Positions 429 through 31,203 of a stretch of DNA of 34,918 nucleotides are shown here, in pieces. The DNA is from Ignavibacteriales bacterium (lineage in GTDB: Bacteria; Bacteroidota; Ignavibacteria; UBA10030). The stretch's first letter is position 1, and each line of letters starts with the position of its first letter. The stretch is from assembly GCA_026390585.1 (NCBI GenBank), contig JAPLFP010000055.1, positions 1-34,918 of the forward strand. Direction: 5' to 3'. Below the pieces are notes generated by a model. The model made no database searches and was not told where the DNA came from. It was given only the letters and a program-made list of their open reading frames with translations. The position numbers were made by a program, and so were the translations under genes.

Positions 429-461
429 GAGATTCGAACAAGCGTATTGAGCTTCAAAAGC
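429..461. other. tRNA-Glu-like segment, candidate attL
   Basis: This 33-base segment matches the tRNA-Glu gene (31141-31173) without gaps at 27 of 33 positions. The shared blocks are GAGATTCGAAC (T-arm), GAGCTT and AAAAGC (anticodon arm), in the same orientation and spacing. It does not fold as a functional tRNA because the T-stem does not pair. It could be a decayed attachment site left when an element entered the tRNA gene, or a relic of another tRNA. Confidence 0.45.
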
Positions 462-523: not shown

Positions 524-541
524 TGTTAGCAGTTGTTAGCA
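524..541 (+). repeat. TGTTAGCA direct pair, left end
   Basis: Two direct copies of TGTTAGCA at 524-531 and 534-541, start to start 10 bases apart. The same octamer pair recurs in the same orientation at 31084-31103. Paired short direct repeats just inside both ends of an element are typical of arm-type binding sites for tyrosine recombinases. Confidence 0.6.
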
Positions 542-4549: not shown

Positions 4550-5093
4550 TTTCGCTTACCATTGAAGTTATCGATTGGGCTTGTTCCTCTGCTATGCTCG
4601 TATCACTCCGCGTAATTATTGAAGATTTTCAAGCGAATAGCAAACGACCTTGGCATTGTCTCGAATGCTCATTCGGAAGACCTCACCCCAGGTGGTTGCA
4701 GATCCCGCGGAATAGCTCCTCAATTTCCACTATTCAACAAGTACTTTTAATGATTTTGATCGCTTTTTTCACTCGAATGAATTCAAGGGAAATCCGAAGA
4801 TAACCATTCCTAGTTTCTATCGTGCGATAGTAGTTGCTCTAGCATGCTACACAATCTGGAAGCTGCAACTAGCCGGTTCCACCCTCAGCTACTCTATTAC
4901 TCAGCTCATGACTCATCCATTCTTTGCTCGTCCCATCTCACGCCTTTCGTTTCCACCTTCTGCACGCATTTGCCTCGACGCCGCTTTGAGCGCTTTTGCG
5001 GGCGTTGATTTTCAGGCAAAGATTGGCGTCTTTTGGCAGTAGTGCTGTCGGAATCGCCGGCGGCGCTCCCTTCCTTCACAATGCTGCTCAGAT
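4550..5093. promoter_or_regulatory. Divergent intergenic region
   Basis: These 544 bases separate the leftward NTPase gene from the rightward hsdM and must hold promoters for both. I see no gene and no clear consensus promoter. Confidence 0.5.
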
Positions 5094-6734: not shown

Positions 6735-7938
6735 CTACAACAGTTCACAGAGTCAGAGATCTCATCGACGCCAATCATTTGATGGCTTTCATCTCGACGA
6801 TGCAGATCGGTTTCCAGAAGAAGACTTGCACAAAGTGGGTGATAAGATCAGCCGACCAGGCGACGTGGTGTTCACATCCAAAGGGACAGTCGGCAGGTTT
6901 GCGTTCGTCCGGCCAGAAACGCCAAGGTTTGTCTATTCCCCGCAGCTCTCATACTGGCGAAGTCTGAATCAGGATTTCATCGATTCACGCTTCCTTTACT
7001 ATTGGTTGCAGTCCCGGGAGTTTCTTGAGCAAGCTGCTGGAGTGAAGGGCCAAACTGACATGGCAGACTACGTGAGTCTCAAAGATCAGAGATTCATGAA
7101 AATCACGCTGCCGCACGTTGATATACAACGTGCTATTGCTTGCATCCTCGGTGCATTGGACGACAAGATCGAGCTCAACCGAAGGATGAACATTACGCTT
7201 GAGGCCATGGCACAATCACTCTTCAAGTCGTGGTTCGTGGACTTTGATCCGGTGGTTGTCAAGATGGACGGGAAGAAGCCATACGGCATGAATGAAGCAA
7301 CGGCAGCACTATTTCCCGACAAGCTGGTCGAGTCGCAGGTTGGGCTGATGCCGGAAGGGTGGGACCTAAGAAGACTTGACGAAGTCTGCAGTATCAATCC
7401 ACAAACTATCAGCAATGGCTACGCATTGAATCACATTCAATATGTTGACATTTCATCTGTCACGCGTGGAATACTCACTCAAACAACGCCTTACTCATTG
7501 AAAGAAGCCCCTAGTCGAGCCCAGCGGTTGGTGTCTGATGGTGATACAATCTGGTCATGCGTTAGACCTAACCGTCAGTCTTATTTGTTTATTGACCACC
7601 CACCCGAGGATCTTGTCGTTTCGACTGGCTTCGCCGTCTTATCGCCCACAGATGTTCAACCAGTCTATCTATACACGTGGGTGACTACAGACGACTTCGT
7701 TGACTATTTGACAGCCAACGCTGAGGGGAGTGCCTACCCCGCTGTCCGTCCGGAAGCCTTTGCGAAAGCTCTTGTCCTCGTCCCTACGAAGCAAATCCTC
7801 AATCACTTTGAAGTACAAATCAACCCAATGCGGAGGCTGATCGCTCAGAACAACAGGGAAACTGTTGCCCTCCAATCAGTACGTGGCACGCTTCTCCCGA
7901 AGCTCTTGTCCGGCGAGGTGAGTGTGAAGGAGGTGTAA
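6731..7938 (+). pseudogene. hsdS: Type I specificity subunit with 5' out-of-frame deletion
   Basis: HsdS carries two target-recognition domains that set the DNA sequence bound by the complex. Reading from the GTG at 6731, the frame gives a typical HsdS start (VHRVRDLIDANHL) and then nonsense from about 6780. In the next frame, typical HsdS sequence begins abruptly at about 6781 (DGFHLDDADRFPEEDLHKVG) and stays open to 7938. The piece that normally joins these two parts, roughly 25-30 residues around an IGDGYRAKN-like stretch, is absent. An out-of-frame deletion of about 80 bases explains this. The rest is normal: central conserved region LGALDDKIELNRRM, a second recognition domain, and the end LLPKLLSGEV. 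A TTG at 6826 could start a shortened protein without the beginning of the first recognition domain. A sequencing or assembly error is the alternative. Confidence 0.75.
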
Positions 7939-8015
7939 CATATCTTAGTGGAGAGCGAGCTGCCTTGTCGGCAAGTTCGCTGGCCATCCCCTCCATTCCA
8001 AAGAAAGGGTAAGGG

Positions 8016-8480
8016 ATGAACATCTTTCTGAGCTACAGTGTCAACGATATTGACCTGGTCCGTCAGATTGCTGATTGCATTCATCGCCATGGCCAAGTAT
8101 ACTACTGGGATAAAAGCAAAATTCCAGGCCAAGAATCTTGGCCATCTATCTTTGAATGGATTGACGCGTCTGATCTTGTCATCGCAATTATCACAGGCAA
8201 CACTGTAAGTCGCGCGATGGCTGTTGGACAAGAGATCGGGCATGCAAGAGCCAAGGGGAAAGCGATAATCCCGATTGTTACCCCTGAGGTACCTGCAACT
8301 GAACTCGGCTTTTTGAGTGGAATAGTCTACCAACGTCTCGATAGGAACAACCCGAAAGAGGCTATCGCGGCAATTGAGAAGATTGTCCTCGACATGAAGC
8401 GTCGGAAAGAGGAGAATGTTCAGGCATTCTTTGTCATTGGCGGGCTGGTTGCGTTGATCCTGCTGGCTTCACACGAATGA
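8016..8480 (+). CDS. TIR-domain protein with C-terminal membrane anchor
   Basis: A 154-residue protein. Residues 1-125 read as a bacterial TIR domain: opening MNIFLSYSVND, a WDKSKIPGQESW loop, SDLVIAIIT, and VGQEIGHARAKG with a glutamate in the position of the TIR catalytic Glu. Residues 134-150 (AFFVIGGLVALILLA) form one hydrophobic helix, likely a membrane anchor. Many bacterial TIR domains cleave NAD+ when a partner senses infection; whether this one does is inferred. It lies between hsdS and hsdR on the same strand, with 77 and 69 bases on either side, so it probably shares their transcript. A ribosome site (AAAGGGTAAGG) precedes the ATG. No separate sensor domain is fused to it. Confidence 0.8.
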   Translation: MNIFLSYSVNDIDLVRQIADCIHRHGQVYYWDKSKIPGQESWPSIFEWIDASDLVIAIITGNTVSRAMAVGQEIGHARAKGKAIIPIVTPEVPATELGFLSGIVYQRLDRNNPKEAIAAIEKIVLDMKRRKEENVQAFFVIGGLVALILLASHE

Positions 8481-8549
8481 AGCAATGTAGCAAAGCCCAA
8501 GACAAAGAAACATCATTTCTCTAAACAAGCAGAAAGCAGACCTTGAGTC

Positions 8550-11390
8550 ATGCCCCACCGTGGCACTGAAACCGAGTTTGAGCTAACCACGATCGAGCGT
8601 ATTGAACGCCTCGGGTACGGCTACATTCACGGAGAGGAGTTGGACCGCCCCCATGAGGAGGTCGTGCTGCGAGACGTGCTGAGAAGGGTGTTGGTAAAGG
8701 GCTATCCCGACCTGCCTCCCCGCTCCATCGATGAAGCCGTAGCCCGCTTTGCACGCCCTGAAGGAGTGGACACGCTACGCCGCAACATGTCGTTCCACAA
8801 TGACCTCACTCGTGGCATCGAGGTTAAGGTTGAACATCCGAACGGCAAAGTTGAGCACCGCCACTTGTACGCAATCGACTGGGACACACCTACGAACAAT
8901 GAGTTCCTTGTTGTCAACCAGTTTCCCATCCACGGCAAGAATGATCGCCGTCCAGACATTCTCATCTTTATCAACGGCCTTCCTCTGGTTCTCTTCGAGC
9001 TTAAGAATCCATACGACAAACACCCGACAGTCGATCACGCACTCAACCAGATAGCACACTACAGGAACGACATCGCACAACTGTTTGACTTCAACGCCGT
9101 CACCGTCGTCTCGGATGGGGTCACCACACTGCACGGGGCGTGGACTTCAACGTCGGAGTGGTTCGCACCGTGGAAATCCATCGATGGTTTCAACACCGAG
9201 GCAAATTCCACAGGCAGCATGAAAATGCTGGTCGAGGGTATGTTGCCAAAAGACCGCCTTTTGTCCTACATCAGAGATTTTCTTGTGTTTGAGGTCGTCA
9301 ACGACAAGATTACCAAGAAGGGCGCGAAGTACCATCAATTCTTCGCCGTCCGGATCGCCGCACAAAAAGCCATCGAATCATTCAGACCCGATGCCGACAA
9401 ACGAATCGGCGTCATTTGGCACACGACCGGTTCAGGTAAGTCATTGTCCATGGTGTTTCTCGTCGGAATCCTCCGTCGACATCCCGAGATGCAGAACCCC
9501 ACTTTCGTGATCGAAGTAGACCGAACCGACCTCGACAATCAGATCCATGACCAGTTTGTTGCTGCGCGCGCTCTCGTTGGTGATGTCAAACATGCTGACA
9601 GCGTCGATGATTTGCGCACCATGCTTCAGACTGAAGGCGGCGAAGTGATCTTTACGACCATCGAGAAGTTCAGGCTCAAGTCCGATGAAGGTGAAATTGA
9701 GCACCCTGTTCTTTCGAATAGATCCAACCTCATTATTATCGCGGATGAAGCTCACCGCACTCAGTATGGTTTCCTCAAAGGTTACGCTCGCTATCTCGCA
9801 GAAGCACTCCCAAATGCCAGGCGCATGGGATTCACCGGGACACCGGTCAGCTTCAGCGGATCTGACACCGTTGAAGTGTTTGGTGATCTGATCCATTGGT
9901 ATGATATCAAGCAGTCGCAGGCCGACAAGGCAACCGTTCCAATCTTCTATGCGCCACGACAAATCAAACTGCATCTTACCAGTGCCGACATTGACGCTGC
10001 ACTTCAAGACATTATTTCTAGACACCCCGTCGATGACCTCGAACGAAGGCAGGCACAGTGGTCAGCTTTGGCGTCGGCAGCAGGTTCGAAGGACCGGCTC
10101 GATCGACTCGCGAGTGACCTTCTGATGCACTTCCTGGATCGCACAGCCACGCTGAAAGGTAAGGCGATAATTGTGTGTATGACGAGGGAAAACTGCGTCC
10201 GTCTCTACGATGCCCTTACTGTATTGCCCAATTGCCCTGAAGTCAAGATTGTGATGACGGGCGACCTCTCGAATGATCCGCCTGAATGGAGCGCCGCAGG
10301 TCACATCACGACGAAGGCTCAACGTGATGCAATCAAACAACGGATGATCGACCCCGATGACCCGCTCAAAATTGTCATCGTGTGTGATATGTGGCTCACT
10401 GAGCCGGCGCCAGATGTGGCTGAAGAAGCAAAACCTGTGTTCTTCGAATGTCTAGAGGTCGTGCGCAAACAACTCCCCACCAACGTTGATTACGGCTCCT
10501 GGCGCCGGTTGTCACGAATTGAACTTGAGGACAGATTTGCTGCAGTGTTTGGTCACCTCACAGACACAGAAGAACGACAGGATGACTTCTTGCAGGATGA
10601 GTTGAGGCTTACACAGTCCTATCTCCTTGTGAAGCATCTTGACGAGTGCCGCCGTATTGCAGACGAAATCATATTCTATCAGCGGGTCCGCAACCAGCTT
10701 CTGAAGCTGTCTCCCGGACGTAAGGATAAGCCAGAACTCGATCAGGCCGTTCGAGACCTCGTAGATGACAGTCTCCAGACAGAGGGGGTCGTCGACATTT
10801 TCAATTTGTCAGGTATCGAGAAAGCTGACATTTCAATTCTCGATGACAAGTTCCTCCAAACGTTCAAGGACAAGCCGTTCGAAAACCTTCGTGTCAAACT
10901 GCTCGAAAAGCTCATCAGTGACGCGATTGAGTTTCGGCAGAGAGGCAATCTTGCAAAGGCAAGGAGTTTCAAGGAGCTGCTGGAAGCGACTCTCAGGAAT
11001 TATCACAATCGGCTGATTGATGCGGCAGCGGTTGTCAAGGCAATGATCCAGATCCGGCTGGAGATGGAGAATGAGGATAAGCGCGCCGCGGAGTTGGGAC
11101 TAGAGCCAGAAGAGCTTGCATTCTATGATGCAGTTGCAGCTAACTACGACAACATTTATGGTGTGAAGTTCCTTCGTGACCTAGTCCATGAGGTCGTCCT
11201 GACGATCAAGCGAAACCTCAAAGTTGACTGGACGGAACCTCATAGAGAGGATATCAAGGCAACAATTCGTTCTGCAGTCAAACGTGTGCTGCGTAACCGA
11301 GGAGTCAAGACTGAGGACTTCGACAAGTTTGTTGGCGAAATCATGAGACAAGCAGAAGCTCTATATGCCGACTGGCCGTTAGCGGCGTGA
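8550..11390 (+). CDS. hsdR: Type I restriction subunit with internal deletion
   Basis: HsdR is the ATP-driven translocase and nuclease of type I systems. This copy has 946 residues, shorter than the usual 1000 or more. The nuclease domain is present (D136 in RPDILIF; E150-L-K152). So is the first helicase lobe: Walker A TGSGKS (293-298), DEAH (399-402), GFTGTP (428-432). The second lobe runs normally to VIVCDMWLT (609-617) and then jumps to EPAPDVAEEAKPV. The expected GFDAP stretch and the QAIARVNR-like motif VI, plus the VVDY stretch, are missing, about 60-75 residues. The reading frame is kept, so a product is made, but ATP-driven translocation should be impaired. The C-terminal helical domain looks normal. 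The stop overlaps a possible GTG of the next gene. Confidence 0.88.
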   Translation: MPHRGTETEFELTTIERIERLGYGYIHGEELDRPHEEVVLRDVLRRVLVKGYPDLPPRSIDEAVARFARPEGVDTLRRNMSFHNDLTRGIEVKVEHPNGKVEHRHLYAIDWDTPTNNEFLVVNQFPIHGKNDRRPDILIFINGLPLVLFELKNPYDKHPTVDHALNQIAHYRNDIAQLFDFNAVTVVSDGVTTLHGAWTSTSEWFAPWKSIDGFNTEANSTGSMKMLVEGMLPKDRLLSYIRDFLVFEVVNDKITKKGAKYHQFFAVRIAAQKAIESFRPDADKRIGVIWHTTGSGKSLSMVFLVGILRRHPEMQNPTFVIEVDRTDLDNQIHDQFVAARALVGDVKHADSVDDLRTMLQTEGGEVIFTTIEKFRLKSDEGEIEHPVLSNRSNLIIIADEAHRTQYGFLKGYARYLAEALPNARRMGFTGTPVSFSGSDTVEVFGDLIHWYDIKQSQADKATVPIFYAPRQIKLHLTSADIDAALQDIISRHPVDDLERRQAQWSALASAAGSKDRLDRLASDLLMHFLDRTATLKGKAIIVCMTRENCVRLYDALTVLPNCPEVKIVMTGDLSNDPPEWSAAGHITTKAQRDAIKQRMIDPDDPLKIVIVCDMWLTEPAPDVAEEAKPVFFECLEVVRKQLPTNVDYGSWRRLSRIELEDRFAAVFGHLTDTEERQDDFLQDELRLTQSYLLVKHLDECRRIADEIIFYQRVRNQLLKLSPGRKDKPELDQAVRDLVDDSLQTEGVVDIFNLSGIEKADISILDDKFLQTFKDKPFENLRVKLLEKLISDAIEFRQRGNLAKARSFKELLEATLRNYHNRLIDAAAVVKAMIQIRLEMENEDKRAAELGLEPEELAFYDAVAANYDNIYGVKFLRDLVHEVVLTIKRNLKVDWTEPHREDIKATIRSAVKRVLRNRGVKTEDFDKFVGEIMRQAEALYADWPLAA

Positions 11391-11419
11391 CGAGTCCAAG
11401 ATCGACGAAGGACCGAAAC

Positions 11420-12262
11420 ATGAATCGTGAATTACTGAGAGTAGTTCAAAAGAAATATCTCGAGGGTGAACGGTCAATTTCCTTTTCGGAAATCGGGAAA
11501 CTAGGCATCAAGCAAACCGAGAAAACAGTGCAGATTGGCAACCTACGCCTTAAGAGTAATAGTTTTCTGGAATACTACAGCGTGTCTCTTATTGATGAGG
11601 AAAAAGATCTCGACGGACTGCCGATTCGAGAGAACAAGAAGCTCTTTGCCCGGCTCCTGACCCTTTGGGAGGAAGGCAAGACTCGAATCTACTTCGATGA
11701 AATGAAGAAACTAAATATCTACACACCAAAATCCTCGTTTGAGATCAAGAATTTTAGATTGAGCAGTGTCGGCCCCTGGCGAGTGGATCATTATGGGATC
11801 AGCTTGATAGATGAGAAGAAGGATCCTGAGGGCAAATGGATCGACGAGATGACAAATGCCAAACGGGTGCTTGCCGAACTCGAGTCTTTTGAGCCTTCCG
11901 GTGACTCTTACAAGAAAGAGACTGCACTCGAGAAGGAACTTTTCTTTTTCTTTCGGGATCGATTCCACACGGTCCAGCGTCAGCTCTACATCGGAGGCAG
12001 CGTGAAGGCACTGAGAATTGATTTCGATATCGCCGATGGAAAAATTGGCCTGGAACTTAAACTCGCAGAAAGTCTCTTGGACTCCACCGAGAAGCAAAGA
12101 CTTATTGGCCAAATGCATGATTACACCACAAAACGATATAAACCCGAGAATTTCATTCTGGTAATCGCAGGTGAACTGCGATTAAGAAGTGATCCGACAA
12201 TCAGTGAAATCAGGAATCTTGTTAAGGCCAGATCTCATCTCTTTTTTTTGAGCCTCGATTAG
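11420..12262 (+). CDS. PD-(D/E)xK nuclease-like protein with two tandem repeats
   Basis: I chose the ATG at 11420 because AAGGA (11408-11412) stands 7 bases before it; a GTG at 11387 overlapping the hsdR stop would add 11 residues. The 280-residue protein has two related units of about 55 residues (13-66 and 83-138). Each starts with an EG(E/K) helix, passes through a (G/K)NLRL/KNFRL strand and ends in SLID(E/K)KKD-like sequence. The C-terminal part shows a nuclease-like signature: D201/D203 in LRIDFDI and E212-L-K214 in GLELK, followed by a helix with QMHDYTT. I do not recognise a named family. Its place directly behind hsdR suggests a role in the same defence block, perhaps as a separate nuclease effector. 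Confidence 0.7.
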   Translation: MNRELLRVVQKKYLEGERSISFSEIGKLGIKQTEKTVQIGNLRLKSNSFLEYYSVSLIDEEKDLDGLPIRENKKLFARLLTLWEEGKTRIYFDEMKKLNIYTPKSSFEIKNFRLSSVGPWRVDHYGISLIDEKKDPEGKWIDEMTNAKRVLAELESFEPSGDSYKKETALEKELFFFFRDRFHTVQRQLYIGGSVKALRIDFDIADGKIGLELKLAESLLDSTEKQRLIGQMHDYTTKRYKPENFILVIAGELRLRSDPTISEIRNLVKARSHLFFLSLD

Positions 12263-12401
12263 AATCTCCGGACAGCTTGGTATTCAGTTTGAGATTTTTC
12301 AGGAACCGAGTCAATTGCGGAAGCTCATTGAAACAAGCTGAGATTCAAAGACCTTGCATTATGCTTCTCAAGCAGACCTCAATTCGCTCTTGGAGTGAAA
12401 A

Positions 12402-13040
12402 TTGAAAAAGGCACCCCCTACAATACTAGTCTCCTCAACCGTTCACCGAATTGAGGACTTACTCGATCAAGTATATGGAGTACTGGGAAGTCTTGGATAC
12501 AAAGTCTGGATGTCACACAAAGGTACTATTCCGGTTCATCCCAGAAAATCCAACTTCCAGAATTGTCTAATTGCTGCGGAAAGATGCGACCTATTTTTCG
12601 GAATTATCACTCCATTCTACGGAAGCGGAAAAGCTGGCTCTGGCCTCTCCATTACTCATCAAGAAATGCTGAAGGCGATCAAGCTGGACAAACTCCGATG
12701 GTTCGTCGCACATCACCATGTCGATTTTGCTCGCAAGCTTCTTAGGCAATATCGCTTCTTCAAAAATGGGAACCCCAAGAAAATCAAGTTTAGTAAAACT
12801 GACGTCATGGATGACCTCCGAGTATTGGACATGTATGAGGCTGCCACACGCGACAATGTACCTCTTCTTTCGAGAACTGGGAACTGGGTGCAGCCATATG
12901 TTCAATCTGAAGATGTCCTGCGCTTTATCACGGCGCAGTTCGGAGATTTGAAACGAATAGAACAACTGATCGAGGAGCAAAAAGCACATGCAAAAAGCAT
13001 TAAGCGATCTGCTCGCCCAGGGCGAAACAGAAAACACTGA
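12402..13040 (+). CDS. DUF4062-domain protein
   Basis: A 212-residue protein starting with TTG, supported by GGAG at 12392-12395. The sequence matches the DUF4062 style: ILVSSTVHRIEDL at the start, GYKVW, a cysteine-rich NCLIAAERCDLFFGII strand, YGSG and SITHQEM. DUF4062 is a Rossmann-like domain, often N-terminal in STAND-type and other conflict proteins. Here it stands nearly alone, with a basic tail (KSIKRSARPGRNRKH). It overlaps the next gene by 53 bases in another frame, which ties the two together in translation. A regulatory or sensor role with the downstream ATPase is inferred. Confidence 0.75.
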   Translation: MKKAPPTILVSSTVHRIEDLLDQVYGVLGSLGYKVWMSHKGTIPVHPRKSNFQNCLIAAERCDLFFGIITPFYGSGKAGSGLSITHQEMLKAIKLDKLRWFVAHHHVDFARKLLRQYRFFKNGNPKKIKFSKTDVMDDLRVLDMYEAATRDNVPLLSRTGNWVQPYVQSEDVLRFITAQFGDLKRIEQLIEEQKAHAKSIKRSARPGRNRKH

Positions 13041-14355
13041 GTTCAAGGCATTTGCTGATTCAAGAGTAATCGCGGAAACTGTCTGTGCCTTTCTCAACGC
13101 GGGTGGAGGCACTTTGCTTGTTGGGGTTGGCGACAAGGGAAAAGTTAGGGGCGTTCCGCAAGCAGAGGAGCAGGCAGCAAACATTCTGAGACGATTGTAT
13201 GTTGACATCAGTCCCAAAACGATCTGGTCGGTCACTGTCGAAAACGGCGGAGTCATCATGATCGGTGTTCCGTCTGGCAAGGATAAGCCATATACGTTTA
13301 ATGGCAGAATCTTCGTGCGTGAAGGTGCAGCAACACAGGAAGCCAACTCAGACGCCATTCGCAAGATGGTGGAGGCCCAACTCCAGGAACCGATGCGCTG
13401 GGAAAGACTGTTCGCCCAGGGGCTTGAACCGGACAGCCTGAATGAAGAACAGATCCGGCAAACTGCTTTGGACGGAACCAACTTCCGTGGCTGTCGTTTT
13501 CAAGATCTCAAAAACGTGTCTATTATTCTAGAGGACCTTTCTCTCCAACGAGGGGGTACGCTTACAAATGCTGCGGATGTTTTGTTCAACAAGAATCCCA
13601 ACCGGCGACTGCCACAGACAAGGGTCCGGGCAACAGTGTTCCCCACCGACAAAGGGGGAAAGTACACCGATGATCGCCTTTTTGAAGGCAACGCACTTGA
13701 GTTGTTTAATAATCTCCAGTCCTTTCTTCGCCAATACGTGAGCATTGAGGTTGATTTCCCCAGGGGAAAGTCCGAAAGAAAAGAAAAACCCAAATACCCA
13801 TTCACGGCACTGGACGAGGCGCTTGTGAACGCCTTCGTTCACAGGGACTACTCACAATTCAGCGGAGGAATGTCAGTCGGAGTTTATCCAACGCGCATAG
13901 AAATTTGGAACTCGGGAGGATTGCCAGAAGGGCTGAGCATTTCTGATTTGAGGCGACGACATCCATCCAAGCCTAACAATCCGGACATTGCTCACGTTTT
14001 TTACCTCCGACGGTTGATGGAACGTGTTGGTCGAGGTACACAGAAAATCATTGATGAGTTCAAGGCCGCGGGACTTCCGGCACCCGTTTGGGAATCCTCG
14101 CCGACGGGTGTAACACTTATACTCAAATCAAAAGCAACCAAAGATAAGGTCGCTTTGAATGCGCGACAATTGTCTCTTATCGCCAAACTCCGTTCTGGGG
14201 ATTCTATCGAGCCAAAGAACTATTACTCGCAGATGTCTTCGGAGATCACACAACGACAGGCCCAGCGTGATCTGGCAAGGTTGGCAGCTGGTGGCTGGTT
14301 GCGCCGAGTAGGAACAGCACGTTCGACGATATATATTCGAACTGATAAGGAGTGA
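12988..14355 (+). CDS. AlbA_2 domain / HATPase-like regulator (COG2865 type)
   Basis: A 455-residue protein. Residues 8-115 form an AlbA_2 (Schlafen-like) domain: TEFKAFADSRVIAETVCAF, then FLNAGGGTLLVGV. Residues 265-370 match the C-terminal HATPase-like domain of COG2865 proteins: ALDEALVNAFVHRDYS, RIEIWNSGGLPEG, RVGRGTQKI. The last 70 residues look like a winged helix (TQRQAQRDLARLAAGGWLRRVG). Such proteins are annotated as putative transcriptional regulators or RecG-related and are common in defence islands. GAGGAG (12972-12977) precedes the ATG, which lies inside the DUF4062 gene. It may regulate the island or act with its neighbour; neither is shown. Confidence 0.82.
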   Translation: MQKALSDLLAQGETENTEFKAFADSRVIAETVCAFLNAGGGTLLVGVGDKGKVRGVPQAEEQAANILRRLYVDISPKTIWSVTVENGGVIMIGVPSGKDKPYTFNGRIFVREGAATQEANSDAIRKMVEAQLQEPMRWERLFAQGLEPDSLNEEQIRQTALDGTNFRGCRFQDLKNVSIILEDLSLQRGGTLTNAADVLFNKNPNRRLPQTRVRATVFPTDKGGKYTDDRLFEGNALELFNNLQSFLRQYVSIEVDFPRGKSERKEKPKYPFTALDEALVNAFVHRDYSQFSGGMSVGVYPTRIEIWNSGGLPEGLSISDLRRRHPSKPNNPDIAHVFYLRRLMERVGRGTQKIIDEFKAAGLPAPVWESSPTGVTLILKSKATKDKVALNARQLSLIAKLRSGDSIEPKNYYSQMSSEITQRQAQRDLARLAAGGWLRRVGTARSTIYIRTDKE

Positions 14356-14376
14356 TTTGGTGCAATAGTGTTGTAT

Positions 14377-14716
14377 CCAGACACTTTCAGACTTTAGTGG
14401 TTTCTTCCTTGTCCCTCAAGCTGTTAAGCTTTAATAGGTTAGCTGTGCTCGGTTCCGGTTCATTCCAGAATCCAGACATATCCAGACATTGCTGTGTCAC
14501 TCAACAAGCATCAATTGCCTTATTCGAACCGAACCTTTCGACGGATTCACCGAAGCGGTCCATCTCATGTTAAAGACTGGCAAAGATGAATCAAGTAGAA
14601 CCAGACATCTCCAGACATTCGAGCCTTTTGCGCTTTTTCCACAACTACTTACATCACAGTGGATTAACTACGGTTGGTCAATTCGCCACCTTTCATTCCG
14701 GACATACTCAGACATT
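14377..14716 (+). repeat. Four spaced CCAGACAT double repeats
   Basis: Four 19-base sites at 14377-14395, 14472-14490, 14601-14619 and 14698-14716, all in one orientation, share the pattern CCAGACATNTCCAGACATT. The two middle copies are near perfect and the outer two diverged. Start-to-start spacings are 95, 129 and 97 bases. Each site is itself a 9-10 base motif in tandem, as expected for a protein that binds cooperatively. No gene is recognised between them. Confidence 0.75.
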
Positions 14717-14725
14717 CGACTTCCA

Positions 14726-15097
14726 TCAGCCATACTTTGACCATAATCGACCCGGACTTGGGTCACACTCGATCCAAGATAGGCCTAAAATTGAGTCAGG
14801 CTGACGGAAATGCCAGTCGGACAATCCCCCCCAGCGAAAGAAACGATCCAGAGGAATCATCATCGATTCCATCAGTATTTCGATCACCATGGTGCCGATG
14901 ATGAGCAGCACACCGAGACCGACACCGCCGCCGATGCCACCCTCACCATTCACGACGCCAATAACGACTTCGATCAGCGTACAAGCCACCGCGATGTCCA
15001 CAACGATGACGATCTGGAGGTAGATGAGAAGGAGAAGGAGCACGGGAAGGAGGATGCAAAGGAGGACGAGGAGAAGTACGAGAAGGAGAAGGAGCAC
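14726..15097 (-). CDS. Possible small membrane protein, uncertain
   Basis: A 123-residue minus-strand frame: a leucine-rich start (from the purine tract on the other strand), a long hydrophobic helix, a glycine-rich turn (GEGGIGGGVGLG), a second hydrophobic segment and a polar tail. It could be a two-helix membrane protein. However, the complementary plus-strand frame (14810-15184) is also open, highly charged and followed by a terminator. No ribosome site is visible. Either frame, or neither, may be real. Confidence 0.22.
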   Translation of the reverse strand: MLLLLLVLLLVLLCILLPVLLLLLIYLQIVIVVDIAVACTLIEVVIGVVNGEGGIGGGVGLGVLLIIGTMVIEILMESMMIPLDRFFRWGGLSDWHFRQPDSILGLSWIECDPSPGRLWSKYG

Positions 15098-15240
15098 AAG
15101 CAGCAGGATGAGAAAGAGGCAAGAATGGGGATCAGGATCATGCAGAGATTGCGGCTATTCCATTCCCGCGGTTGTTTCTCCTGACCACATTTCCTATATT
15201 CTCTCCGAAGTTGCTTCATAACATTTCATCCGAGTCCAGA

Positions 15241-15294
15241 GACCTAAGCCACCACGGCGTGCTTTCAGGCCGTCGCTTTAGGTCTTTTTCTTTT
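15241..15294 (+). terminator. Intrinsic terminator, plus strand
   Basis: The outer stem is GACCTAA (15241-15247) with TTAGGTC (15278-15284), the inner stem ACGGC (254-258) with GCCGT (269-273), followed by TTTTTCTTTT. There is no T-run on the other strand. It ends a rightward transcript that may come from the AlbA_2 operon or from the charged frame at 14810-15184. Confidence 0.7.
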
Positions 15295-15575
15295 CAATCA
15301 GATCGGATTGAATATGGGCTCAACGAGGGACTTCAAACGGACAACGCTCCGTTTGGACGCGCCTGTGCATGCCTGCGAATTGGTAGGAATTCGAGCAACA
15401 TTGTTTTCCTAAGTTTCTGTGCTCCCGATGATAAAACAACATTTTGGCCCTGCGTTCGGACCGTCGAATCGCTTACTTCGCAGCGAGCAATCTGGGCACA
15501 TTGGCAGAAATTTTTTGAGAATCCGGATAGCTACTTGAGCTGGGGGTATATCGGTAGGCCTTTTGAGAAATGAAC

Positions 15576-24236: not shown

Positions 24237-24284
24237 CAGCACCCCTTAGCATTCCTGCTTCACATCTCCGCCGTCCCTTGTAAT

Positions 24285-24322
24285 GTGGACAAGGTGGATC
24301 CTCATTTCTTCGTCATGTCCAC
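24285..24322. repeat. Origin-like hairpin repeat, copy 1
   Basis: 38 bases: GTGGACAAG (24285-24293) and CATGTCCAC (24314-24322), pairing 8 of 9, with a loop containing ATTTCTTC. The left arm with its preceding T reads TTGTCCACA on the other strand, a DnaA-box-like nonamer. Confidence 0.75.
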
Positions 24323-24513
24323 AAGCGCCAACCCTAAACTTTAGCATTATATGTTCAGCTGAGAGTGTCTTGATAATACTCCCGTCGAGGTCCGCTGATA
24401 AGGCCTGATATGAACGGACATCAACCCGATCGTGGATGTGATCGTTGAAAGTGAATTCCGCACATAAGGTGAGCACGTGGCACTTCTAGCGATTATGAAA
24501 TTGAGGGTTCCCT

Positions 24514-24551
24514 GTGGACAGGGTGGGTAATCGTTTCTTTTCCTTGTCCAC
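24514..24551. repeat. Origin-like hairpin repeat, copy 2
   Basis: 38 bases: GTGGACAGGG (24514-24523) with CCTTGTCCAC (24542-24551). The loop has GGGTAATCGTTTCTTT, closely matching copies 1 and 3. Confidence 0.78.
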
Positions 24552-24670
24552 GAGTACTACGCTTAGAAAGTGGTAAATACATCCCGGCGGGATAGATCTC
24601 TCATGGATCAAATCCATGGAAGTGATCCAGAAGTACGATCACTCCTACAATCACAAGAAGTGTGATTCTT

Positions 24671-24707
24671 GTGGACAAGCGGGTATTCATTTCTTCTTCT
24701 TGTCCAC
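24671..24707. repeat. Origin-like hairpin repeat, copy 3
   Basis: 37 bases: GTGGACAAG (24671-24679) pairs perfectly with CTTGTCCAC (24699-24707). The loop is GGGTATTCATTTCTTC-like. It lies about 207 bases before the polymerase-like gene. Confidence 0.8.
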
Positions 24708-24810
24708 GATAGATCACAGAATGCTTGACGTTCTTATGGTTAGAGACACCGACACAACTGGCCGGCAGCAGATGTTCATCAAATGAAACAATCGAATAGC
24801 GGGGAAGAAT

Positions 24811-24882
24811 ATGGAAAAGATTAAGAAAGCAATTGATCCTAAAAGAAGGATTTTCGAGTTGAAAGCCTTCGTAAATGAGTAA
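24811..24882 (+). CDS. Possible 23-residue leader peptide
   Basis: ATG at 24811 after GGGGAAG opens a lysine-rich 23-residue frame (MEKIKKAIDPKRR then IFELKAFVNE) that ends 31 bases before the polymerase-like gene. It could be a leader peptide or chance. No known leader motif is present. Confidence 0.25.
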   Translation: MEKIKKAIDPKRRIFELKAFVNE

Positions 24883-24913
24883 TCAAGTAATTACTGCATA
24901 GGGAGGTACCGAA

Positions 24914-26761
24914 ATGTCTAGGGCATTAGAGGAGATTATTTCAAGCGGAAGCATTACTAGCGCCAAGGAATTGGAGATTACCCCCAGTCTTGTGGGTTAT
25001 GGCAGTAATTTCACGCCTAATCCGACGGCAATTAAGATCAACGATTCATCTGAAGTCGGAAATTTGGACTCAACTGGTTACAACCATTCCTCGTCCTCAA
25101 TTCCCGACCAAACCTGTTACCTAAATATCACAGACTCGAAGGGCAGTATGGCTTCTCCGGAAATCGCTGATAAACTCAAAGGTGGGATATTGAGAGGCGG
25201 AAAGGATTACTTCAGGGATCGTTCTCCAATTGTGGCAAGAGGTAGAAAAGACCGGGAAAAGAAAACGATAGTTTTCTATGTCCCGAACAACTTGGACCTC
25301 GAAGCAAAGCTAGCTCAACATTACCCAGATATGCTTAGACACAAAGACAAATTATACTATGTGTTGGATAAATTGTACGTAATGGCCTTCCTTGACAAGC
25401 GGTTTAGTTCTTCAAGTTCTTACTTACCATTTCTAAGTCAGAATTCCTCTAGTTCTAATGCAATTTCTCCTTCTGACTATAACACAATTACTTCCCTTAG
25501 CAACAATCCTTTTTCAACAAATAGTTTTAATACGTTTAGCTCTTCATCTCTTTGTAATGCCATACCATCTCCTCCTTTTTCTTCAAATACTCCATTTCAT
25601 AACAATAATATGAATGTGTTACACACTTATGGTGTCTACTCAGAAGGTTTGTGTACTAAACCGAAGAAAACGAGAAAGGGATTAGGAAAAAGAAAGAGGA
25701 CAGCCAAAGAACCGACAAAGCATGGCAAAAGGCCCGGAAAAAGGGAATACATACGTCTTAACACCAAAATACTCAGGAGGGTGCTGACGTGCGAGCTGGC
25801 TAGGCCAATAATGGAAGCCTTAACCTCTCTCAATTTCGCGGAAACTGACAACCAATACATTTTGGGAGAAAAGTCGAGAGGATATAAACTGACCCTACCA
25901 TATAGATCCGCTCCGTTCACAACAGTGACGATCGCAGACAAACGATTTCACAACAAGTTGGTGAAGATCAAAGAAAGAGAGATCCTGAATCTGTCCCCCC
26001 TTCACCAACAAATTTATCAGAACCTGTCTTCGTTTTCCTTCGACTTAGTAGCTGCCGAGGCTCTCTTAGACCAGATGAATGGCAATACTAGACAATTTCT
26101 CACCGTGAGACTCGCTATTGACAAAATACAGAAACAGGACTTCTTTTTCTCGACAGATAGGAAGACGGGGCGAATCTTTCACAATTACTGCAATCTTAAG
26201 AAAGAATTCCGCCAGTGCATCCTGGATGCAGATGGACTGACGATGGTTGACATCGACATTTGCAACAGTCAACCCTTCTTTCTCGCCCTCATGCTAAAGG
26301 AGAGTCTTGTCGAGTCTGACAACGTTCTTAAGTACATCGCACTGACAGTGGATGGACAACTGTATGATCATATCGGCGAGAAGTATTCCATGGAAAGAAC
26401 ATACGTGAAAAAACTTGTCTTCACACTCTTCTTTTGCAGGAACAATCAGAAGGCAAAACTCAAGGAGATATTCCAAGAAGAGTTCCCGGATGTCAATTCA
26501 TTTATCGAAGAAGTCAAAGGAAACGACTACAAGAACCTTTCAATCCAGTTACAGAAGCTAGAAGCATCGATGATGATTGACACGATCGGTCAAAGACTTT
26601 TGGAAAAGGGAATCACGTTCATCACAATTCACGATAGCTTCATGGTGTCCGCAAAAGATGTTGAGATTACACTGCACGTGATGAAAGAAGCCTTCATGGG
26701 GGGATATGGGGTCGTGCCAAAATTTGGAGTCACGCGTGGGGATTGTAAGGTGATCCGATGA
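24914..26761 (+). CDS. Divergent family-A-like polymerase, putative replicase
   Basis: A 615-residue protein behind a strong GGGAGG site. The C-terminal 240 residues carry the order of motifs seen in family-A polymerases: a GRIFHNYCNLKKEFRQ segment, motif A VDIDICNSQP (D446/D448), a basic helix in motif B position (K499, K500; YVKKLVFTLFF) and motif C ITIHDSF (H573-D574). There is no 3'-5' exonuclease domain. The N-terminal part is unlike known domains; residues 163-242 are a Ser/Asn-rich low-complexity insert whose coding strand is very poor in G, followed by a basic linker (KKTRKGLGKRKR). Position behind origin-like repeats suggests it replicates the element. The T7-like RNA polymerase family shares the HDSF motif C, so DNA versus RNA synthesis is open. 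Its stop overlaps an ATG of the next frame. Confidence 0.68.
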   Translation: MSRALEEIISSGSITSAKELEITPSLVGYGSNFTPNPTAIKINDSSEVGNLDSTGYNHSSSSIPDQTCYLNITDSKGSMASPEIADKLKGGILRGGKDYFRDRSPIVARGRKDREKKTIVFYVPNNLDLEAKLAQHYPDMLRHKDKLYYVLDKLYVMAFLDKRFSSSSSYLPFLSQNSSSSNAISPSDYNTITSLSNNPFSTNSFNTFSSSSLCNAIPSPPFSSNTPFHNNNMNVLHTYGVYSEGLCTKPKKTRKGLGKRKRTAKEPTKHGKRPGKREYIRLNTKILRRVLTCELARPIMEALTSLNFAETDNQYILGEKSRGYKLTLPYRSAPFTTVTIADKRFHNKLVKIKEREILNLSPLHQQIYQNLSSFSFDLVAAEALLDQMNGNTRQFLTVRLAIDKIQKQDFFFSTDRKTGRIFHNYCNLKKEFRQCILDADGLTMVDIDICNSQPFFLALMLKESLVESDNVLKYIALTVDGQLYDHIGEKYSMERTYVKKLVFTLFFCRNNQKAKLKEIFQEEFPDVNSFIEEVKGNDYKNLSIQLQKLEASMMIDTIGQRLLEKGITFITIHDSFMVSAKDVEITLHVMKEAFMGGYGVVPKFGVTRGDCKVIR

Positions 26762-26856
26762 TTAATACCTCTAAACGTCAAGCATTTGCAGGCAGAAAGA
26801 CTGTATTACGATCCAACATTTCAGTTTTACCAAACAATAACATAAAGGAGCAAGTT

Positions 26857-27525
26857 ATGCGCAATACAAAGCAGTCCGTTCAACGTTCATTCAAATCCAG
26901 AGCTCATTCACCACGGTTCAAGATTGACAAACAGCTGAAAAAGGAACGCTCTAACCAAGTCAGGGTCTACGTAAAGGGGCTTTCGGAACACGGATATTTC
27001 CCCAAAGGAGCCTTCGCTGTCATCATTGATTTTCGTGGCAACACCATAGAGCTGAGTGGATCCGAAGAGAACCAATCAAACATTAGGATGGAGATGTTCG
27101 CTATGATCAAAGCCATTGAACATCTCAAAGCTGAATATCGAACAGTTGTCGTCTTCTCTGAATTGAATATGCTGGTGGATGCCTTTCAGAAGGATTGGAT
27201 TGGTAATTGGGCACAATTGGGATGGAGGAAAGGAAATGGAAGTCGTCTTGAGAACCGTGACCTTTGGAAACAAATCTATGAAAGTTCTTACTCAATGTTC
27301 GTTGAATTCAGCAGACCCGAGAGTCCAAGGGACGTGGAATTCATCCGACTGGCTACCCATTATGCAAAAGTGGCCTTGAATCTTCCATTGATAAAAGACC
27401 AAGTACGATTTCTTCCGATCAGTTCAAAGTCGGGCATACACATGGTCACGTTTTATCCAGACTTGCAGGACATTCCAGAAGAAGACTTCGAATTTAGCGG
27501 AGGTGAGAGTGAGGATCGAAAATGA
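26857..27525 (+). CDS. RNase HI-fold protein with replaced catalytic residues
   Basis: I prefer the ATG at 26857 because AAAGGAG stands 6 bases before it; an ATG at 26758 overlapping the polymerase stop would add 33 residues. The 222-residue protein follows RNase HI along its length: VRVYVKG, then GAFAVIIDFRG, IRMEMFAMIKAIEHLK, VVVFSELNMLV, DWIGNWAQLGWRKGNG, ENRDLWKQI. Against E. coli RNase HI, the catalytic set D10-E48-D70-D134 becomes K40-E79-E102-I163, so only one residue is unchanged. It is probably not a standard RNase H and may bind RNA-DNA hybrids or serve as a structural partner of the polymerase. D159 or E161 might compensate. It is co-transcribed with the polymerase gene. Confidence 0.75.
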   Translation: MRNTKQSVQRSFKSRAHSPRFKIDKQLKKERSNQVRVYVKGLSEHGYFPKGAFAVIIDFRGNTIELSGSEENQSNIRMEMFAMIKAIEHLKAEYRTVVVFSELNMLVDAFQKDWIGNWAQLGWRKGNGSRLENRDLWKQIYESSYSMFVEFSRPESPRDVEFIRLATHYAKVALNLPLIKDQVRFLPISSKSGIHMVTFYPDLQDIPEEDFEFSGGESEDRK

Positions 27526-27944
27526 ACGATTCATCTTTTGATCATTGGAAAATTGGTGGCGGCGAAAGCCGTGTCTGGATGAACTCACCAGAGCTTGTGA
27601 AAGAACTTCGAAAAGCTTGTGGAAGAGGTGCGACTTACGAAAAAGCCGGCAGGGTGATTGAGTGGCAATTTGTCGTCCCCTTCAAGCTTGTCAGATTCTA
27701 TTACCGCAGGTTTCTGTTGTTGAGCTCCCAAAATCGTGTTTTGGAGGGTGTTGAAAATGAACGAGTTACAGAGGCGAGTACAAAGAAATTTGCCCGTGGC
27801 GAAAGCTCTGGGAGAAAAAGGTACATAGACAAGCCCAGAAGAGCTTCTAAGGCAAATCGGCAGATTTCGAGTAACAGCAGACAGATCAGCAAACAGGGGA
27901 AAGCTCTAACTGGAAATCCACTCTACAAGGAGGACAAAACATGA
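27522..27944 (+). CDS. Small basic protein of unknown function
   Basis: A 140-residue protein whose ATG overlaps the stop of the RNase H-like gene (ATGA), so translation is coupled. The first half (about 10-65) looks globular: ESRVWMNSPELVKELRKACG, YEKAGRVIEWQFVVPFKLVRFYYRRF. The second half is basic, Ser/Asn-rich and probably disordered. It contains no cysteine pair or catalytic motif. It may be a DNA-binding accessory of the replication module; no family is recognised. Confidence 0.55.
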   Translation: MNDSSFDHWKIGGGESRVWMNSPELVKELRKACGRGATYEKAGRVIEWQFVVPFKLVRFYYRRFLLLSSQNRVLEGVENERVTEASTKKFARGESSGRKRYIDKPRRASKANRQISSNSRQISKQGKALTGNPLYKEDKT

Positions 27945-28084
27945 AAACCTGATCCGTTGTTTTAGAAACCGTTCTCGTGCCAAACAAGAACGAGAAGATT
28001 CCCAACTAGCGCAAATAAGCGGTGAAGCAAAACTATCACACAAACTAAACGGAGTTACAGAAAATGGAAAAAGGAGACGTTGTA

Positions 28085-28423
28085 ATGTACACTTTTGAAA
28101 TCGGTCTGTGGGCTGATGATGAAACATACAAGACTGAAAAAGCCATCGCAGGAGGTGTCTATTGGGGCAAAGAGGCTTCGAGGAACAACTTGGTGGATGG
28201 CAGTTTGACTACGGCAGTTGCATACCTGACTGAGAACTTTCCTGTTCCCGAGGGACAGATGATTCGTGATGTAAGGCTTGTGGGAATGGAAAAGGCAGAT
28301 CAGGGCATTAAGATGTTTGGCATGTCGAGTCGAACAAATAGCGGCGATTCTCTGTGTCAGTTGAAATCACCGAGAGGTTCCTCGGCTAGGAACAAACTGG
28401 ACAAGACAAATTCAGATTCATAA
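28085..28423 (+). CDS. Small acidic-start protein of unknown function
   Basis: The ATG at 28085 is preferred because AAGGAG (28071-28076) stands 8 bases before it; an ATG at 28064 would add 7 residues and has no ribosome site. The 112-residue product begins MYTFEIGLWADDETYK and has a compact first part to about residue 75 (SLTTAVAYLTENFPVPEGQ), then a polar Ser/Lys-rich tail. No family is recognised. A 140-base gap with a 7-bp inverted repeat (TTCTCGT/ACGAGAA, about 27973-27995) precedes it. Confidence 0.5.
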   Translation: MYTFEIGLWADDETYKTEKAIAGGVYWGKEASRNNLVDGSLTTAVAYLTENFPVPEGQMIRDVRLVGMEKADQGIKMFGMSSRTNSGDSLCQLKSPRGSSARNKLDKTNSDS

Positions 28424-28446
28424 TTCAATATCATAAGGAGAATACT

Positions 28447-28647
28447 ATGAACTTTCCAAAATACTATGTGCATTGCATGTATTGCAAGACTAGAGCAAAA
28501 CGTACAGGCCTCAAAGACAAAATTGGCCATTGGCAATGGAAGTGGTTCTACATCAGAGAATACCTATGCCCAAAATGCGGCATTAAGTATATTCATGACG
28601 AAATACGCAGGGTCGGTCATTACAATACGAGATATTTTCCGGATTAG
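28447..28647 (+). CDS. Zinc-ribbon small protein
   Basis: A 66-residue protein behind AAGGAG (28435-28440). Two CxxC pairs, C10/C13 (HCMYC) and C41/C44 (LCPKC), 27 residues apart, form a likely zinc ribbon. The segment between is basic and aromatic (HWQWKWFYIR), which suits nucleic-acid binding. It is the last gene of the replication-like block. Confidence 0.65.
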   Translation: MNFPKYYVHCMYCKTRAKRTGLKDKIGHWQWKWFYIREYLCPKCGIKYIHDEIRRVGHYNTRYFPD

Positions 28648-29027: not shown

Positions 29028-30047
29028 ATGGCTTCACTTATCAAGGGAAACAACCGTAACTACACCATAGTTTATCACGACTTCGAGCGTCGGAGATGGA
29101 AATCCACGTTTACTAGCGACCATGAGGAAGCCCAACGAATATTCGATTTGTTGGTACCAAATCTCGAGCGTTCGAGGAAGACGAGTCTCAGTTACCTTGC
29201 CCATCGAATCGATGAATATACCAAGGCAAACCTTTCAGGGGAAACCGCCAAGATGTACTCAAGGACATTCAGAATGCTACAAAGTTCCCTCGGAGATTTG
29301 CCCCTCAGAAATATCACTACACTCAATATCGAAAAGTTTAAGCAGGACCGGCTAAAGCATGTACTTCCTGTCACCGTCAATATTGACCTTCGAACGCTGC
29401 GTTCTGCGTTCAACCTTGCTGTAGATTGGGGACTGATGGACCAAAATCCTGCCAAGCGCTGCAAGCTGTTAAGGATTCCACAGATAGACCATATGTTCCT
29501 TTCAAAATCGGAATTTCTCAACCTCTGTTCGTCTATCAATGATGAGCAGTTTCGTCGTCTTCTCCTTCTTGCAGTCCGAACTGGAATGCGACGAGGAGAA
29601 ATTGTGAATCTGTGCTGGGAAGATATGGACTTCACAAGAAAGTCTATTCGAATTCGAAATAGGCAGACCTTTGTGGTCAAGGGAATGCGACCTCGCACAA
29701 TCCCGATGCCTGAGGACATTTGGCAGCACTTTCAGACTTTGAGCAAGACCAGCGGTTATGTCTTCACTAAGGTCAATGGTTCACCACTCAGCGCGCACTC
29801 CGTTTCCCGTAGATTCAAGCGCCTCCTGCGAATATGTGGGTTGCCCCAGGAACTACATTTTCACTCACTTCGCCGAACCTACGCCTCTTGGTTAGCTTTG
29901 GCAAGCGCTCCGATTCATGACATTCAACGTCTTCTCGGTCACCAAAATGTTCAGACAACCGAGCTGTACATAACCTTGCCCTCCGAGCACCTCAGGCAAA
30001 GTGCGAGTCGAGTAGAACTGCCTGAGGTCCTCAAACGTACTGGTTAA
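29028..30047 (+). CDS. Tyrosine recombinase, copy 1 (rightward)
   Basis: A 339-residue site-specific recombinase with an N-terminal SAM-like core-binding domain (about 55-150) and a C-terminal catalytic domain. Catalytic residues are visible: R188 (TGMRRGE), H279 and R282 (HSLRRT), the GH box (LLGHQNV) and nucleophile Y314 (TELYITL). The residue after the second arginine is R where most relatives have H (HxLRH). No ribosome site is evident. It faces the second recombinase tail to tail, sharing TTAA as stop codons. It could carry out integration or excision at the tRNA site, or belong to an older element. Confidence 0.9.
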   Translation: MASLIKGNNRNYTIVYHDFERRRWKSTFTSDHEEAQRIFDLLVPNLERSRKTSLSYLAHRIDEYTKANLSGETAKMYSRTFRMLQSSLGDLPLRNITTLNIEKFKQDRLKHVLPVTVNIDLRTLRSAFNLAVDWGLMDQNPAKRCKLLRIPQIDHMFLSKSEFLNLCSSINDEQFRRLLLLAVRTGMRRGEIVNLCWEDMDFTRKSIRIRNRQTFVVKGMRPRTIPMPEDIWQHFQTLSKTSGYVFTKVNGSPLSAHSVSRRFKRLLRICGLPQELHFHSLRRTYASWLALASAPIHDIQRLLGHQNVQTTELYITLPSEHLRQSASRVELPEVLKRTG

Positions 30048-31063
30048 TTCAGGACAATCTGTTTTGATAACCCTTCCACCGTACTATGCAATTGTGAAGG
30101 TGCAAGGTGACTATAGCGTGCCGTAACTGAAATGGTCGAATGACCCATGAGTTGTTGGACTTCGTAGATGGGCACACTATTCTGAACCAACCAACTTGCA
30201 AAGGTATGGCGTAGTGAATGAAAATGGTAGTTATCTTTGAAGCCCAGACGGCGAAGATATTGTTTGAATCTTCGCGTGACCCAGACATCTCGGACTTTTC
30301 TACCATTAATGGTGACAACATACTCCGTTTGCTCGGAGATCTTGAGTTCACTCAACAATTGAATAGCCACATTGTTCAGCGGTATGACCCTCCTTTTTCC
30401 TGCTTTCGTTCTGAACGTAGAATCTGACTGAATCCTGACGACTCGTTCCGTCAAGGAAATGTCTCTCCACTTGAGATTGACGAGTTCACCCCTCCTCATT
30501 CCCGTGCAAGCAGCCAAGACAACGATTGACCGCAACCATTTTTCCTTAAACGCCGAAACCAAGGCTTGAAAATCGGAAGCACTGAAGAAAGCGGGAGAGC
30601 ATTCTGGAATCCGACACAGCGGTACATGAGAGAATGGGTTCGATTTTAACATCTCCCATCGAACGGCATAGGAGAATGCTGCCCGGAGCGTACGCAGTTC
30701 GATGTTGAGAGTAACTGGCGAGACCTCACCGAGTCTTCGCTGACGGTACAGATCAATGTGGCGAGCCGAGATGTTAGAGATTTCCAGATCACCGGCAACT
30801 CTCAGGAAGTGCGTCAGAGACTTCTTGTAGATTCCGACTGATCCCTTTGAATAGATGCTCGCTGCGAAGGAAAGAAAATCCCGGATGTAGATTGAAAGGC
30901 GTGGTGGTTGTTTCTTCCGAACATCATCAAGATCGATTGCCGGAAGTTTTCGCAAAGCATCTGACTTCTGACGTTCTCCGGTACTGATCCACCGGCGTCG
31001 GCCGTCGCGGGTATAGGAGATGAAATAGTACACTCCGTTGGAGCGCTTGAAGAGGGTAGGCAT
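30044..31063 (-). CDS. Tyrosine recombinase, copy 2 (leftward, next to tRNA-Glu)
   Basis: This 339-residue recombinase shares the architecture of its partner but has only moderate identity to it. The full catalytic set is present: R190 (TGMRRGE), H282 and R285 (HSLRHT), H308 (LMGHST) and Y317 (ARYSHL). The N-terminus has an arm-binding-type start (TLFKRSNGVYYF) as in lambda-like integrases. Its start lies 21 bases from the TGTTAGCA pair and about 70 from the tRNA-Glu 3' end. It is the likelier integrase of the element, its gene reading away from the attachment site. Confidence 0.92.
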   Translation of the reverse strand: MPTLFKRSNGVYYFISYTRDGRRRWISTGERQKSDALRKLPAIDLDDVRKKQPPRLSIYIRDFLSFAASIYSKGSVGIYKKSLTHFLRVAGDLEISNISARHIDLYRQRRLGEVSPVTLNIELRTLRAAFSYAVRWEMLKSNPFSHVPLCRIPECSPAFFSASDFQALVSAFKEKWLRSIVVLAACTGMRRGELVNLKWRDISLTERVVRIQSDSTFRTKAGKRRVIPLNNVAIQLLSELKISEQTEYVVTINGRKVRDVWVTRRFKQYLRRLGFKDNYHFHSLRHTFASWLVQNSVPIYEVQQLMGHSTISVTARYSHLAPSQLHSTVEGLSKQIVLN

Positions 31064-31083: not shown

Positions 31084-31103
31084 TGTTAGCAGAAGTGTTA
31101 GCA
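31084..31103 (+). repeat. TGTTAGCA direct pair, right end
   Basis: TGTTAGCA at 31084-31091 and 31096-31103, start to start 12 bases apart, between the leftward recombinase gene and tRNA-Glu. It matches the pair at 524-541 and is a candidate arm-type site for the integrase. Confidence 0.6.
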
Positions 31104-31130
31104 GGTGAGATTTTGCGGCTGTAAGTCTAG

Positions 31131-31203
31131 TACCCCCAACGAGATTCGAACTCGTGTACCGAGCTTGAAAAGCTCGTGTCCTAGGCCTCTAGACGATGGG
31201 GGC
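31131..31203 (-). tRNA. tRNA-Glu (anticodon TTC)
   Basis: A 73-base cloverleaf on the minus strand. The acceptor stem GCCCCCA pairs with TGGGGGT (one G-T pair at the end). The D-arm, the anticodon arm CGAGC-TTTTCAA-GCTCG (anticodon TTC) and the T-loop TTCGAAT are all in place. The 3' CCA is not encoded. Its 3' end faces the recombinase genes, so it is the likely attachment site. Confidence 0.95.

Follow-up and report, generated by a model that had tools for sequence, protein, structure and literature searches.

The polymerases known as TV-Pols were defined in 2008 by Iyer, Abhiman & Aravind as predicted primase-polymerases of mobile elements (PMC2579912). In a subset of these there is an additional N-terminal domain and the gene adjoins λ-type integrases; Bacteroidetes members are listed, and SCCmec CCPol was counted as a TV-Pol by the same authors (PMC2579912). 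CCPol is an active polymerase which, in complex with its small partner MP, is able to prime de novo, and as of 2020 was the only TV-Pol to have been tested biochemically (PMC7581432). Pairs of an A-family polymerase and an SSB are also widespread in the elements of Bacillota (PMC10061031).

Here we compare these systems with a locus in a 34,918-nucleotide stretch of DNA from an Ignavibacteriales bacterium (referred to as the window, meaning the whole stretch analysed). The initial annotation had described an undescribed replication-like module with repeated hairpins, a truncated polymerase, an inactive RNase H-like protein and small partners. The genes and repeats it listed (polymerase, RNase HI fold, small ORFs and zinc ribbon) are all present where it had placed them (Table 1), but the module cannot be called undescribed, as the polymerase family is widespread and fits the TV-Pol kind of 2008 (PMC2579912). 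What stands of the proposed specialised replication module is a polymerase-type replication gene within an integrative element, though of a kind already described, and nothing but the apparently dead RNase H of the operon sets it apart as unusual.

Table 1. Positions of the features of the integrative element and its polymerase operon in the window.
Feature	Position	Strand	Remarks
Decayed left attachment core	429..461	+	82% of 33 nt
Left-end TGTTAGCA pair, putative arm-type sites	524..541	+	
Defence-type cargo	782..15573	.	nSTAND, type I RM, TIR, DUF4062, Schlafen/AlbA
Dyad repeat 1 (TGTGGACA-24-TGTCCACA)	24284..24323	+	Candidate origin/iteron unit
Dyad repeat 2	24513..24552	+	
Dyad repeat 3	24670..24708	+	Single-strand fold z -4.7
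TV-Pol-like superfamily-A polymerase, 615 aa	24914..26761	+	Pfam, PHROG, predicted fold, family alignment
RNase HI-fold pseudoenzyme, 255 aa	26758..27525	+	PF00075 E 1.8e-9; ATG overlaps polymerase stop (ATGA)
ORF of 140 aa, no assigned function	27522..27944	+	Start overlaps RNase H-like stop (ATGA)
ORF of 119 aa, no assigned function	28064..28423	+	No phage relatives found
Zinc-ribbon ORF, 66 aa	28447..28647	+	Two CxxC knuckles
Tyrosine integrase INT1	29028..30047	+	HxxR...Y box present
Tyrosine integrase INT2	30044..31063	-	Adjoins tRNA
Right-end TGTTAGCA pair, putative arm-type sites	31084..31103	+	
Right attachment core	31130..31173	+	3' 44 bp of tRNA-Glu (31130-31203, minus strand)

The operon lies in an integrative element of ~30.7 kb (about window 429–31173) in tRNA-Glu, and the integrative setting suggested earlier is borne out by the two tyrosine integrases, the att-like repeats and the paired arm-type sites at this tRNA. 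INT2 starts 67 bp from tRNA-Glu, and INT1 and INT2 are convergent with a 4-bp overlap (29028–31063). The sequence TGTTAGCA has four copies in the window, found only at 524, 534, 31084 and 31096 and thus forming two close pairs, and of 200 shuffled windows just two had three plus-strand copies and none had four; paired sites at both ends are as expected of integrase arm sites, which they would appear to be. In one relative of the same genus (G003) the same tRNAs and argF'-argB region are present and the 4 kb that were read past the tRNA contain no integrase; an integrase at a tRNA, an att repeat and a site that is integrase-free over ~4 kb are thus all found, as in a tRNA-site element. A second relative of the genus (G002) has orthologues of both integrases (55–58% amino acid identity) facing each other at the same tRNA-Glu, and there the element carries other cargo and no polymerase of the window's family. 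The left att copy has decayed and excision may therefore no longer work. We note that a perfect copy of the 44-bp tRNA-Glu core is present in the same genome (G000) at contig C209:3408–3451 (L218) and that the ~80 bp following the attachment core are alike there and at window 429–461; this copy may belong to a second element, or a composite island may have its true left end there. The defence-type cargo, taken across window 782–22291, also includes a cREC receiver domain and an AAA gene (20334–21587) similar to that of the defence protein IetA. Nothing in the window was recognisable as a replicative helicase, and an Rfam search of it returned nothing beyond the two tRNAs.

The polymerase has no dedicated Pfam or NCBIfam match, its only Pfam match being to RNA_pol just under the cut-off (E 1.6e-4), and it is matched clearly by PHROG 4756 (E 3.8e-10) and weakly by PHROG 2051 and 414, both annotated as 'RNA polymerase'. 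PDB sequence searches with the polymerase profiles matched no polymerase chain, so the link to the superfamily-A fold is one of predicted structure. In the AlphaFold model, which has most of the core at pLDDT ≥ 90, a small N-terminal domain is followed by a core of ~330 aa, with residues 21–108 and a low-complexity insert at ~168–272 as disordered additions to a complete catalytic core. Structure comparison gave Z scores of 15–16 over ~245 residues against Pol theta, Bst and Taq Pol I and T7 DNAP, nearly matched by the T7 and mitochondrial RNAPs (Z ~15), and Pol I structures ranked first in Foldseek (E ~1e-5), so that DNA polymerases head both searches; the closest viral models include a 'putative DNA polymerase I' of a marine phage. 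The family-A-like character proposed in the initial annotation is thus upheld by the predicted fold and the PHROG match, whereas its view of the polymerase as truncated is not: members of the family range from about 390 to 690 aa, and by the standard of that family the window protein is complete, with a low-complexity insert added. Homologues of 387–397 aa span the same core.

An alignment of 57 diverse homologues shows R420, D448, S452, Q453, P454, K499, E550 and D574 to be invariant and N451, Q547 and H573 nearly so. Read as motifs, these residues would correspond to the β-hairpin Arg (R420, which precedes the strand at 421–423 in the model), motif A (D448-xx-NSQP), the fingers Lys (R495-x3-K499, in which the Lys is invariant and the first position is R or K in most members) and motif C (H573-D574) of superfamily-A polymerases, with Q547-xx-E550 lying between the last two. 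At Q453, as the motifs are aligned, a Gln takes the place of the steric-gate Glu of Pol I, and at the position aligned with T7 RNAP Y639 nearly all members have a Phe (F507 in the window protein). Changing Y639 of T7 RNAP to Phe relaxes sugar choice, and on the alignment F507 and Q453 together would suit a loose choice of sugar, as in a primase.

These features are shared with the TV-Pols, which have a minimal superfamily-A core with thumb helices, a β-hairpin Arg (here R420), a palm with two Asp (D448 and D574) and RxxxK fingers, and which resemble the window protein further in the extra N-terminal domain, the adjacency to λ-type integrases and other recombinase linkage in mobile elements, and the occurrence in Bacteroidetes and phages. 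The window differs in having no recognised D5-like helicase and in the RNase HI-like gene that follows the polymerase. Microcystis phage Ma-LMM01 MAP_030 is encoded next to a transposase and for that reason is taken here to be the Ma-LMM01 TV-Pol of the 2008 paper; it gave a weak hhalign match with its profile (P 0.003, probability 10%) which nevertheless comprised 306 co-linear columns including the N-terminal domain. As the structural features agree and there is this weak link in sequence, we refer to the polymerase as TV-Pol-like, an assignment with good but not complete support. The locus also resembles CCPol–MP and PolA–SSB (PMC7581432, PMC10061031) in that the A-family polymerase of an integrating element is followed by a small partner, with a few repeats near the putative origin, but the gene adjoining the polymerase here encodes an RNase H fold and not an OB-fold; SCCmec differs further in using a serine rather than a tyrosine recombinase and in its Cch2-type helicase, of which none was seen in the window.

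On its sequence, the polymerase belongs to a large PHROG 4756-like family which is widespread in phages and integrase-bearing elements. Relatives found by tblastn were from uncultured phages of 595–735 kb and a Hymenobacter plasmid, and the family profile built from these was needed for the IMG/VR viral finds: when the window polymerase by itself was used for a pattern scan, viral contigs gave no match, and the profile search recovered at least 119 IMG/VR stretches with a family polymerase. Among 395 genomes sampled from the phylum, 15 had a family polymerase, as had 6 of 150 relatives, and the 38 named genome loci are mostly from Bacteroidota, with others from Verrucomicrobiota, Planctomycetota and one Rhizobium MAG. 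A tyrosine integrase is located within 3 kb at 25 of 55 distinct cellular loci (28/60 before the removal of duplicates), and other neighbours are HTH_17 excisionase-like and Sak4/AAA_24 genes; across the phylum, integrases and excisionase-like regulators recur beside the polymerase, whereas defence genes do not. The family tree groups the window polymerase with that of an 'Ignavibacteriae' MAG of the host order (G060, same contig as L161; support 97), in which an integrase likewise adjoins the polymerase. The PHROG 4756 family-A polymerases of huge phages (LR756501, LR756511 and others) are of the same family but have no low-complexity insert, no RNase H partner and no integrase close by, all three of which are found in the window.

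The gene following the polymerase encodes a protein with the fold, the RME motif and the GWR...ENxDLW handle region (here GWR...ENRDLW) of bacterial and phage RNase HI (PF00075; phrog_531), with an N-terminal extension of 60 aa and a C-terminal one of ~45 aa. When this protein is aligned with the RNase HI of related genomes (19 sequences), the earlier view that most catalytic residues are lost is confirmed: D10 is replaced by K, E48 is kept, D70 is replaced by E, the His (H124) is lost and D134 is replaced by L, so that three of the four catalytic carboxylates are altered and the D-E-D-D plus His of an active RNase HI is not present. RNase H matches in the related genomes resemble ordinary rnhA with intact active sites, and viral contigs scanned by pattern for the window protein yielded no relative. 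The initial annotation had set beforehand the lack of a conserved association between the two genes as counting against it, and this is what we found: an RNase H gene adjoins a family polymerase at 1 of 145 loci, which is the window itself, and none was found in flanks of up to ~10 kb at the other 144, so the two genes do not make up a conserved system. Through ATGA start–stop overlaps the operon's first three genes form one translational unit; the 140-aa product is modelled with low confidence (pLDDT 60) as β-α-β-β plus a helix.

Ahead of the first gene of the operon are three dyads of ~40 bp with arms TGTGGACA...TGTCCAC(A), spaced by 229 and 156 bp and with the spacer conserved as well. The repeated hairpins noted earlier are therefore real. 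Across the 4.7-Mb genome, TGTGGACANGN{14,26}TGTCCAC has no forward match other than these, and on the reverse strand it matches once, at one of these three sites. Three hairpins with a common arm did not arise in any of 2000 dinucleotide shuffles of the intergenic region, and the single-strand folds gave stem z scores from -2.0 to -4.7. The arms (TTGTCCACA/G) are one base away from a DnaA box, which makes the label 'DnaA-box-like' fair but not specific. The repeats could be the origin of the element; no consistent iterons or dyad repeats were seen upstream of the polymerase genes of other family members, so the evidence for an origin function comes from this single locus.

Taken together, we consider that the region is probably the replication-priming module of the integrative element, in which the TV-Pol-type polymerase would prime and/or extend DNA on the excised circular form, with synthesis starting near the three dyads, and in which INT2, perhaps with INT1, would integrate and excise the element. 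We infer polymerase or primase activity, origin function, excision and replication in this scheme, together with whatever role the RNase H-like protein and the small ORFs may have. It should be noted that CCPol works with a helicase, and the lack of one in the window counts against a priming module. A single-subunit T7-like RNA polymerase, with a role in transcription of the element's own or its defence genes and not in the priming of DNA replication, would agree with the RNA_pol and weak PHROG matches and with RNAP structure scores close to those of the DNA polymerases, but the large N-terminal promoter-recognition region of such enzymes is missing, DNA polymerases lead both structure searches and Phe is found at the Y639 position in nearly all members, and we regard this as very unlikely. 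It is less improbable, though still unlikely, that the polymerase gene is cargo unrelated to replication, for instance encoding a polymerase for gap filling or repair, or else belonging to the defence island. The element does bear such an island, the Hymenobacter plasmid with a homologue also encodes an ordinary replication initiator, so that family polymerases need not be the replicator, and a Thermus ICE without its primase-polymerase is reported to have been unaffected in replication (PMC7693054); against this, PADLOC had no match for either the polymerase or the RNase H-like protein, and it is integrases and excisionase-like regulators that recur as neighbours of the family.

The RNase H-like gene might also be a functionless, decaying passenger in a degenerate relic of a module, which would be compatible with a priming role for the polymerase and which we consider a serious possibility, albeit not the favoured one. 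Its single occurrence beside a family polymerase, the altered catalytic site and the decayed left att are in keeping with this, but the 255-codon frame is intact and coupled by 4-bp start–stop overlaps on both sides, which argues against plain decay, and the adjacent polymerase keeps every catalytic motif. This one example fits either function or drift. In the priming module that we prefer, the protein, if active at all, would be an accessory binding DNA or the RNA–DNA primer end, comparable to MP with CCPol; it may bind nucleic acid, and with the catalytic site mostly lost and the scaffold and much of the handle kept, a binding accessory is its most likely role. A more specific proposal, that the dead RNase HI stands in for an MP-like subunit for ssDNA binding and holds the template or primer end for a TV-Pol start at the dyad origin, is rather improbable. 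With this operon it can be tested directly whether a protein of unrelated fold can serve a TV-Pol-type enzyme as accessory subunit, and the presence of the family in huge phages and in the integrase-bearing elements of Bacteroidota and their relatives provides many further primase-polymerase candidates.

Other arrangements were seen amongst the family loci. A recurrent set in Bacteroidota consists of an integrase, the polymerase, a Sak4/AAA_24-like ATPase and a DUF3871 protein (L123, L177, L180, L184, L186 and L188), and the Tenacibaculum homologue (L122:9522–11582, in G144:C4; also L179) has a NUMOD1/GIY-YIG homing-endonuclease-like insertion in the polymerase region. In the 595-kb phage LR756511 (L007:3761–6207) the TV-Pol-like gene shares a 4-bp overlap with another gene, one which matches Pfam DNA_pol_A (E 1e-19), and this huge phage thus encodes two tandem superfamily-A polymerases; two genes ahead of the polymerase (L007:2167–3102) is an aspartate/ornithine carbamoyltransferase-like gene.
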